Assembly (NCBI GenBank): GCA_035712365.1
Contig: DASTAW010000002.1
Location: forward strand, 1-64,000
From: Terriglobia bacterium
GTDB taxonomy: Bacteria > Acidobacteriota > Terriglobia > UBA7540
Length of the DNA stretch: 64,000 bases
Reading direction: 5' to 3'
A program made the position numbers and the translations under genes. Each line of letters opens with the position of its first letter. Position 1 is the stretch's first letter. This document shows, one piece after another, positions 20,133-23,333 of this stretch. Below the pieces are notes generated by a model. The model was given only the letters and a program-made list of their open reading frames with translations. It did not search any database and was not told where the DNA came from.

Positions 20133-20549
20133 ATGCCTGAATTGAGAAGCCCGCGAGCCAAGACCTTCATCCTGCTGGCGTTTATGGTCACCTTCGGGTC
20201 ATCCGGTGACGTACTGCTCAGCCGGGGGATGAAGCGGCTGGGCGAGCTCCGTAGCTGGGCCCCGGGGACCGCAGCGGCTTTTTTTGCACGGGCCTTCGAG
20301 AGCGGCACCATCTGGTTGGCTATCGCCCTGTTGATGCTGTTCCTGGTGAGCTATATGCTCGTGCTTTCCTGGGCGGATTTCAGCTACGTTTCACCCGCCT
20401 CGGCCATTGGCTATGTTTTGGTGGCCCTGATGGGATACTTCTTTCTGGGAGAGCATGTCCCAACCACACGCTGGGTTGGCGTTGGCCTGATCTGCGTGGG
20501 GGTTTTTGTGGTTGGCGGCACGCACCCCAGCACAAATCACAACTCATGA
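20133..20549 (+). CDS. Half-size EamA/SMR-like transporter subunit A
   Basis: A 138-residue membrane protein with four predicted helices (about 12-30, 48-72, 83-100 and 112-130), the size of one EamA repeat or an ArnE/ArnF-type subunit. The sequence VSPASAIGYVLVALMGYFFLGE is the usual end-of-domain signature of the drug/metabolite transporter superfamily. Its stop overlaps the next gene by 4 nt (ATGA), and that gene encodes a second half transporter, so they probably form a heterodimer. In this position, between hpnJ and hpnI, a lipid-linked sugar or hopanoid flippase role is plausible (inference). Confidence 0.75.
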   Translation: MPELRSPRAKTFILLAFMVTFGSSGDVLLSRGMKRLGELRSWAPGTAAAFFARAFESGTIWLAIALLMLFLVSYMLVLSWADFSYVSPASAIGYVLVALMGYFFLGEHVPTTRWVGVGLICVGVFVVGGTHPSTNHNS

Positions 20550-20917
20550 CGGGTCAGACAGCGCTGTTCATTGCGGTTATTGTTGTGGCCGGGCAACTGG
20601 GCGATATTTGCCTGTCGCTCGCCATGAAGACCGTTGGAGAATTCAAGCGTTTCACTCCCGTGAGCGTTTTGCGATTTCTCGGCCGCGCCCTCAGAGTAAA
20701 ATGGCTGTGGATCGGAGTAGGTCTGATGGCCGTGGCTTTTTTTTCACTGCTGGCGCTCCTTTCTTGGGCCGATGTGAGCCTGGTGGTGCCGGCCACGGCT
20801 GCAAGTTACGCAGTCGGCGCCTTGGGTGCTAAGTTTCTGCTGGGTGAATATGTGAACCGGGAGAGGTGGATCGGCGTCTTTATCGTCTGTATCGGAGTGG
20901 CCCTGGTCTGCATCTGA
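20546..20917 (+). CDS. Half-size EamA/SMR-like transporter subunit B
   Basis: A 123-residue protein with four hydrophobic helices and the same tail as its neighbour (VVPATAASYAVGALGAKFLLGE, then RWIGVFIVCIGVAL). The two share the helix-1 motif GQLGDICLSLAMK / GSSGDVLLSRGMK, with a charged residue inside the membrane as in SMR proteins. The start ATG overlaps the stop of subunit A, so the two are translationally coupled. It lies 16 nt before the glycosyltransferase gene. The paired arrangement recalls ArnE/ArnF, which flip undecaprenyl-phosphate aminoarabinose. Confidence 0.75.
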   Translation: MTGQTALFIAVIVVAGQLGDICLSLAMKTVGEFKRFTPVSVLRFLGRALRVKWLWIGVGLMAVAFFSLLALLSWADVSLVVPATAASYAVGALGAKFLLGEYVNRERWIGVFIVCIGVALVCI

Positions 20918-22094: not shown

Positions 22095-22227
22095 GCCACC
22101 GCGGTTATGGGGAAGCAGACCTGAGCTATGAGATGAAGATCGGTGCGCGTCTCCTTGGACTGGAAGGGCGTTCGATGAGCAGCGATGAGTAGTATTGCAA
22201 TTCCAGAAAGGGTAGAATACTCATGCG

Positions 22228-22710
22228 ATGGGATTCAAAGTCTTTCTAAGCTATAGCCTTGATGCTGCCGAACAGGCGCTTGCCTGGCGGTTACAAACAC
22301 TTGCCGCAGCGCACGGCGTTGAAATGTATGTGCCCCCACGCGGACCGCTCGCACCACAGCAGTCGGCCTCATCCATTGCGATTCACAATGCGATTGACCG
22401 GGCTGATTGCGTGCTGGCTATCATTACTGCCAAAGCAAGCGCAAATGTCGAAAGGGAACTCCGCTATGCTCTGACAAAACAAAAACTTGTCATACCAATC
22501 GTCCGTTCGGACCTTGCCGGTCATCCTCTCCTAGCGCAATTCCCCCAAGTATTTACATTCTCTCCGTGGGACAATCCTGGGCAAGTCGAGGGAGGGATTG
22601 TTGAATTCCTCAAGGAAAAAAAGATCAGTAAAGAACAACAGCAAGCTATAGGTGCCCTCGCCGCGGTAGGAATTGGGCTACTCCTGCTCTTTTCTCTGAG
22701 TGAAAAATAG
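22228..22710 (+). CDS. Small TIR-domain protein with C-terminal membrane helix
   Basis: A 160-residue protein. Residues 3-130 form a TIR-like domain: box 1 is KVFLSYSLDAAE, the central helix carries ASANVERELRYAL with Glu77 at the position of the NAD-cleaving glutamate of catalytic TIR proteins, and the strand KLVIPIVRSD follows. Residues about 140-156 are a hydrophobic helix (IGALAAVGIGLLLLF), so the TIR domain is probably membrane-tethered with its N-terminus in the cytoplasm. The next gene, a PIN nuclease, starts at the last base of this stop codon. Hand-counted G+C of lines within the pair is 42-50 percent, against 62-73 percent in flanking lines, suggesting recent acquisition. Enzymatic activity is unproven; a regulatory TIR is possible. 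Confidence 0.75.
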   Translation: MGFKVFLSYSLDAAEQALAWRLQTLAAAHGVEMYVPPRGPLAPQQSASSIAIHNAIDRADCVLAIITAKASANVERELRYALTKQKLVIPIVRSDLAGHPLLAQFPQVFTFSPWDNPGQVEGGIVEFLKEKKISKEQQQAIGALAAVGIGLLLLFSLSEK

Positions 22711-23204
22711 TGCGGATCGCGGTTGTTGACAGCACACCGCTCATTCATCTTGTACACTTGGGTCTATGCGGAGAGATATCCCTCTTCTTTGACGTCGTGT
22801 ATGTCCCCATGGCCGTCCAGCGGGAAGTTAATCGAAAGAGCAGGTTCCGCTACCGCCTCAAGAAGCTTTATGAGACGGGTTATTTCTTAAGGTGTACCAC
22901 AGCGAATGCCGAGAATGTAAAGCTGCTGAGGCCTGATGTTGACGAGGGTGAGGCGGAGGCGCTGATTCAGGCGCAGGAGAGAACAGCAACGCACTTTATA
23001 GGGGACGACAGGCGGGCACGGGAAATCGGTAGCAATATGGGATTTAGGTGTGTTGGAACTGTGCGGATTCTTGCTCGACTGTTTTTAGAGGGACGGGCGT
23101 CGGAAACTCGTAGTCTCGTGCGAAAATTGCAGCGCGACCTTCGATTTCGAGTTTCCGAACAGGTTATTCAGCAGGCGATTGCAATGGCTGAAGAGCCCAT
23201 TTGA
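22710..23204 (+). CDS. PIN-domain nuclease (DUF3368-like), coupled to TIR gene
   Basis: A 164-residue PIN-domain protein, a metal-dependent RNase fold usually met as the toxin of toxin-antitoxin pairs. The acidic quartet is complete: VVDSTPLIHL (Asp7), VQREV (Glu39), DEGEAEAL (Glu79/Glu81) and FIGDDRRAREI (Asp99/Asp100). The DEGEAEA...DDRRAR pattern matches the DUF3368 branch. It starts with GTG overlapping the TAG of the TIR gene by one base, so translation is coupled. The usual antitoxin of this branch (a small UPF0175 protein) is absent; a membrane TIR protein takes its place. Low G+C like its partner. Confidence 0.75.
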   Translation: MRIAVVDSTPLIHLVHLGLCGEISLFFDVVYVPMAVQREVNRKSRFRYRLKKLYETGYFLRCTTANAENVKLLRPDVDEGEAEALIQAQERTATHFIGDDRRAREIGSNMGFRCVGTVRILARLFLEGRASETRSLVRKLQRDLRFRVSEQVIQQAIAMAEEPI

Positions 23205-23333
23205 TTCTGGTGCAAGAAGGGGAACTTGTCCAGGTCTGCTGTAATTGCAAGAAAACGGTTCTCATGTTGTAGATGGTTGTGATTCCTTGCGCCTGTCTTA
23301 TGATATTTCACGCGCGTTGTCTCTGTGTGTTCC

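Follow-up and report, generated by a model that had tools for sequence, protein, structure and literature searches.

A recurrent gene pair in soil Acidobacteria couples a membrane-anchored TIR protein to a PIN nuclease of a toxin family

Two small genes, one for a TIR-domain protein with a hydrophobic C-terminal helix and the next for a PIN-domain nuclease, lie together between two hpnI-type genes of a Terriglobia bacterium. What kind of module do they form, and what does a TIR protein do next to a PIN nuclease? The question was addressed in a stretch of 64,000 nucleotides of contig DASTAW010000002.1 (the window) and in related loci of other genomes. A first-pass annotation, made from the window alone, had proposed a defence or toxin-antitoxin-like module.

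A pair inserted between two hpnI genes

The two reading frames overlap by one base (TAGTG), at position 22710, the GTG of the PIN gene beginning on the G of the TIR stop codon TAG. The genes on either side both score above the HpnI equivalog cut-off. The first-pass annotation, which had the PIN gene start on the last base of the TIR stop and the pair split two hpnI-type genes, was correct on both points.

Table 1. Features of the TIR-PIN locus in the window.
Feature	Position	Strand	Evidence
TIR-domain protein with C-terminal hydrophobic (tail-anchor) helix, 160 aa	22228..22710	+	TIR_2, SARM1/AbTIR profile matches, AlphaFold, tail hydropathy
PIN-domain nuclease, DUF3368 / PDC-S70 family, 164 aa, GTG start	22710..23204	+	PDC-S70, AlphaFold, acidic residues
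Putative -10 element TAGAAT, 9 bases 5' of the TIR ATG	22213..22218	+	TANAAT pattern across pair loci
Inserted segment between two hpnI-type genes, approximate extent	22095..23285	+	Comparison with sister species

The same two hpnI genes were found in two sister species of the genus and in one more distant species, where they are only about 100-110 bp apart and no pair is present. The pair was inserted between them (the downstream edge of the insert, 23285, was estimated by eye from a shared promoter-like sequence), and ordinary hopanoid-operon content was rejected because the sister species have both hpnI genes side by side. GC3 is 0.47 and 0.56 in the TIR and PIN genes versus 0.70 in both hpnI genes, and at 51.8% G+C the pair ranks among the lowest 0.5% of all 977-bp stretches in the window. 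The first-pass contrast of 42-50 percent G+C inside the pair against 62-73 percent around it was overstated, as 60-base lines range from 40 to 62% in the pair (median 52) and from 40 to 73% in the flanking genes (medians 58-60); the low rank of the pair within the window stands.

The pair is horizontally mobile and is inserted at new sites. It is surrounded by different genes at each locus, most of them housekeeping genes. At the one clade B locus (see below) checked for tRNA genes, only 13 bases separate the pair from an upstream tRNA-Leu gene (L047 of genome G741, 1401-1487), and tRNA genes are common insertion sites. No tRNA gene was found in the window, and no Rfam family between 20000 and 26000. 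Ten bases close to one end of the insert (22114-22123) recur as a perfect inverted repeat close to the other (23231-23240); this was rejected as an insertion signature, since by our own estimate about one is expected by chance in such a stretch.

A TANAAT sequence is placed 7-10 nt 5' of the ATG in five of nine pair loci, compared with 0.03 expected in shuffled sequences, the pattern having been chosen after inspection. With a promoter-like element so close to the start codon, the mRNA of the pair is probably leaderless or nearly so. Further upstream in the window, between hpnJ and hpnI (20133-20917), two tandem genes encode small EamA/SMR-like membrane proteins, similar to ArnE/ArnF, possibly the flippase pair of the hopanoid cluster.

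The TIR and PIN proteins

The first-pass description of the upstream protein, a 160-residue TIR domain with Glu77 at the NADase position and a C-terminal membrane helix, held up well. The protein matches Pfam TIR_2 with 35 bits (cut-off 28, E 2.4e-8), as do 7/10 of the paired TIRs, and a profile of the family matches SARM1 and AbTIR. In the profile alignment, Glu77 coincides with the catalytic Glu of SARM1 (helix C), and it is invariant in 18/18 relatives, among them 11/11 paired TIRs. The tail (residues 141-157) has a mean hydropathy of 2.48, and is retained in the paired relatives with the exception of one damaged copy, L005. The AlphaFold model (pLDDT 84.5) has a TIR-like fold whose last helix continues into the hydrophobic tail. 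Structure comparison of this model returned plant TIRs and SARM1 with VIA-align Z values of 12.7 to 14.1, nucleoside-deoxyribosyltransferase folds scoring equally. The match to ThsB, the TIR of Thoeris, is weak (E 0.008), and is better for relatives of the protein that are tail-anchored and solo (E 1e-6 to 2e-11).

In known TIR enzymes, the BB loop takes part in NAD binding. Here the loop (residues 37-52) is hypervariable: within clade A its identity is only 21%, compared with 80% over residues 1-30 and 67% over the tail. With its catalytic Glu kept, the TIR may cleave NAD, though the divergent loop makes this less certain.

The downstream protein carries Asp7, Glu39, Glu81 and Asp99, the full set of four acidic PIN positions seen on first reading, and these are kept throughout its relatives, position 39 being Glu or Asp. 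Its AlphaFold model (pLDDT 96.5) has a VapC-like fold, for which structure comparison finds VapC-type PIN proteins. The protein is a bare PIN domain, devoid of a SLOG, Macro or other ligand-binding domain. Its earlier label, DUF3368-type, is right as to family, but the Pfam DUF3368 model alone would support it weakly, with 23.5 bits under a cut-off of 27.3. The protein also matches PDC-S70 (E 9.6e-26), listed in PADLOC as a single-gene phage defence candidate with a PIN nuclease and discussed in PMC12988326; PDC-S70 models match the PINs of 10/10 pairs.

A weak match of the PIN domain to TPR-GreAB-C-PIN conflict systems (Pfam PF20698) was found in 6/10 members. Unlike in those systems, no TPR or GreAB-C protein was recognised nearby, and the PIN of the window scores under the PF20698 cut-off.

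Recurrence of the pair and exchange of the PIN partner

Sampling within Acidobacteriota, we found the intact TIR-PIN pair in 10 genomes, all of one class and belonging to three families, together with one damaged copy (L005) and two remnants in two further genomes (L052 and L053). The intact count includes one locus, L004, whose TIR gene is cut at its first codons by a contig end. A sample of 396 genomes across the phylum yielded no pair besides that of the window. The hosts are soil Acidobacteria. The pairs form two clades, A, which includes the window, and B, which are about 30% identical to each other and have the same gene order; order and tight spacing are constant across the 10 intact pairs. 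On the points by which the first-pass annotation had proposed to judge its module, the outcome was favourable to it: the adjacency recurs in many genomes, is absent from the hpnI site of the sister species, and has an atypical base composition.

The first-pass annotation had stated that DUF3368 PIN proteins usually pair with a small UPF0175 antitoxin. UPF0175 (COG2886)-DUF3368 pairs are VapBC-like toxin-antitoxin systems (Makarova et al. 2009, PMC2701414), and the statement was borne out at every locus checked without a TIR. All 11 of the closest PIN relatives found have a TIR gene upstream, and the 47 more distant relatives that were checked all carry a UPF0175 antitoxin gene at or near the upstream slot. 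These 47 loci (L014-L042 and L121-L139, L125 being a TIR-PIN remnant and set aside) comprise 29 recognised by Pfam in the phylum sample, where UPF0175 fills the slot itself, and 18 recognised in the class sample by a profile built here. A score gap separates the two groups in the class sample: the 11 best PIN matches are paired with TIR, E values then pass from 5e-33 to 7e-25, and the 18 loci that follow are paired with UPF0175. The TIR therefore occupies the slot of the antitoxin. In all 47 of these loci the PDC-S70 family, a single-gene candidate in PADLOC, adjoins UPF0175; instead of a defence gene acting alone, it may represent the toxin of a toxin-antitoxin pair.

In a tree of 54 PINs, those paired with TIR form one clade (support 99/98), sister to the UPF0175-paired PINs, with one partner change. 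The PIN-paired TIRs likewise form one clade (99/98) against seven unpaired small TIRs. One partner swap therefore explains the pairing. Distances among the TIRs correlate with those among the PINs, both overall (r 0.95, Mantel p 0.0002) and inside clade A (r 0.69, p 0.04). In L005 (around 1935-2100 in G032) both partners are decaying, the TIR having lost its hydrophobic tail and the PIN having an insertion; in the three decayed loci, no intact PIN was seen beside a broken TIR.

Some residues are conserved only in the paired forms. On the TIR side these are Q16, R21, L22, Q23, V35, P36, L63, L78 and E121. The first six, of which Q16, R21, L22 and Q23 are on the first helix and V35-P36 on the next strand, are present in both clades and in 11/11 paired TIRs, versus at most 1/7 unpaired ones. 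On the PIN side, H16, L19, R49, L50, R61, C62 and Q87 are conserved with a TIR partner and nearly absent with UPF0175. Both sets may mark a surface of contact between the proteins; shared ancestry by itself could account for them as well.

No relative of the TIR was found in IMG/VR viral contigs, phage records or plasmids. No PIN relative was confirmed in viral contigs, and the only two plasmid matches, both distant, adjoin UPF0175.

What the TIR may do to the PIN

As a genetic unit, a toxin-antitoxin-like module is well supported. The pair has the PIN toxin family, the gene order, the tight overlap with the upstream gene and the isolated chromosomal insertions of UPF0175-DUF3368 pairs; it differs in that the upstream gene encodes a membrane-anchored TIR instead of a small HTH-type UPF0175 antitoxin. 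Our preferred reading, to which we give a probability of about one half, is a horizontally mobile, self-contained two-gene module of this kind, with the tail-anchored TIR keeping the PIN RNase in check. The recurrence of the pair, its single origin, the partner swap, the retained catalytic residues and the insertion at new sites are observed; that the TIR performs the job of the antitoxin we infer.

In this branch of a PIN RNase toxin family normally under UPF0175 control, a small membrane-anchored TIR has taken the place of the antitoxin gene in a single event. The TIR would bind the PIN, probably via its first helix, and keep it inactive at the inner membrane. Infection, a change in NAD or membrane damage would act as a trigger on the TIR and so free or activate the PIN, which would then cut RNA and stop growth. 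Tentatively, we propose that binding and silencing are direct and that release follows infection, a domain of immune type then serving as both sensor and antitoxin within one protein.

Three observations count against an antitoxin role of the TIR. It has no DNA-binding domain, and so cannot replace the autoregulatory part of UPF0175. Its intact Glu, going by the alignment, points to an enzyme more than to a protein that only inhibits. Finally, five of the 11 pair-bearing genomes carry UPF0175 genes elsewhere. In favour of an antitoxin role, no UPF0175 gene was found in the other six, among them the window's genome, which is 98.9% complete.

In the main rival, the TIR would act as in Thoeris, sensing infection, using NAD as an enzyme and, through its product or its assembly, switching on the PIN, a cell-killing effector; the TIR would then be an activator. 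The likeness to Thoeris (ThsB TIR plus ThsA effector) lies in two genes, a TIR with the NADase Glu, here invariant and aligned to that of SARM1, and a second, potentially cell-killing protein, here with its active site intact; the ThsB matches, weak for the paired TIR and stronger for its solo relatives, point the same way. However, the module has no SLOG, Macro or SIR2 effector, the PIN being a bare domain with no added domain to bind a ligand such as an NAD-derived signal, and its TIR has a membrane tail, only a weak ThsB score and a hypervariable BB loop. It also sits in the antitoxin slot. We regard activation by the TIR as unlikely.

It is improbable that the two are cargo genes travelling together without joint function, or two independent effectors. 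Membrane-anchored TIRs and DUF3368 PINs do each occur without the other, but the one-base overlap, the single origin of the pairing, the correlated distances and the partner-specific conservation, maintained through divergence down to about 30% identity, argue for joint function, and no unpaired member of either clade was found among intact copies. Least probable is a TIR toxin that depletes NAD at the membrane and is restrained by the PIN, through binding or cutting of the TIR mRNA: Glu77 is kept, small TIRs of similar kind occur alone and a PIN might cut the message of its own operon, but the PIN relatives hold the toxin position of UPF0175 pairs at 47/47 loci, and TIRs that are solo, without any PIN, have no need of one.

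As to defence, one pair is placed 36 bp downstream of a Type IIG-like methylase, and two solo, tail-anchored TIR relatives directly adjoin DNA methylase genes (L050 of G445, 1492-1974, and L051 of G568, 1489-1959), one of the Eco57I type, the other an N6_N4 methylase with an Mrr-like restriction endonuclease domain. The neighbours, mainly housekeeping genes and different at each locus, speak for the most part against a general defence-island setting. Thus, of the module first proposed, the toxin-antitoxin-like unit stands by its recurrence and its use of the antitoxin slot, and a defence role is only weakly supported, most pairs sitting by themselves in housekeeping surroundings.

A TIR-PIN pair was not found in the part of the open-access literature that we covered, nor was an open-access paper combining a TIR domain, a PIN domain and DUF3368. 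The 2009 survey of PIN partners (PMC2701414) does not mention a TIR, and the literature searched treats PDC-S70 solely as one of the single-gene candidates, with a PIN gene. Here it is half of a pair, as in every Acidobacteriota locus checked, which suggests that this candidate is better understood as a member of a pair. Spanning about 1 kb, the TIR-PIN pair is a minimal system of two genes, amenable to testing in E. coli. If our preferred reading is true, a TIR protein can stand in for a classical antitoxin, and toxin-antitoxin modules would be linked to TIR-based immunity by a simple swap of partner.
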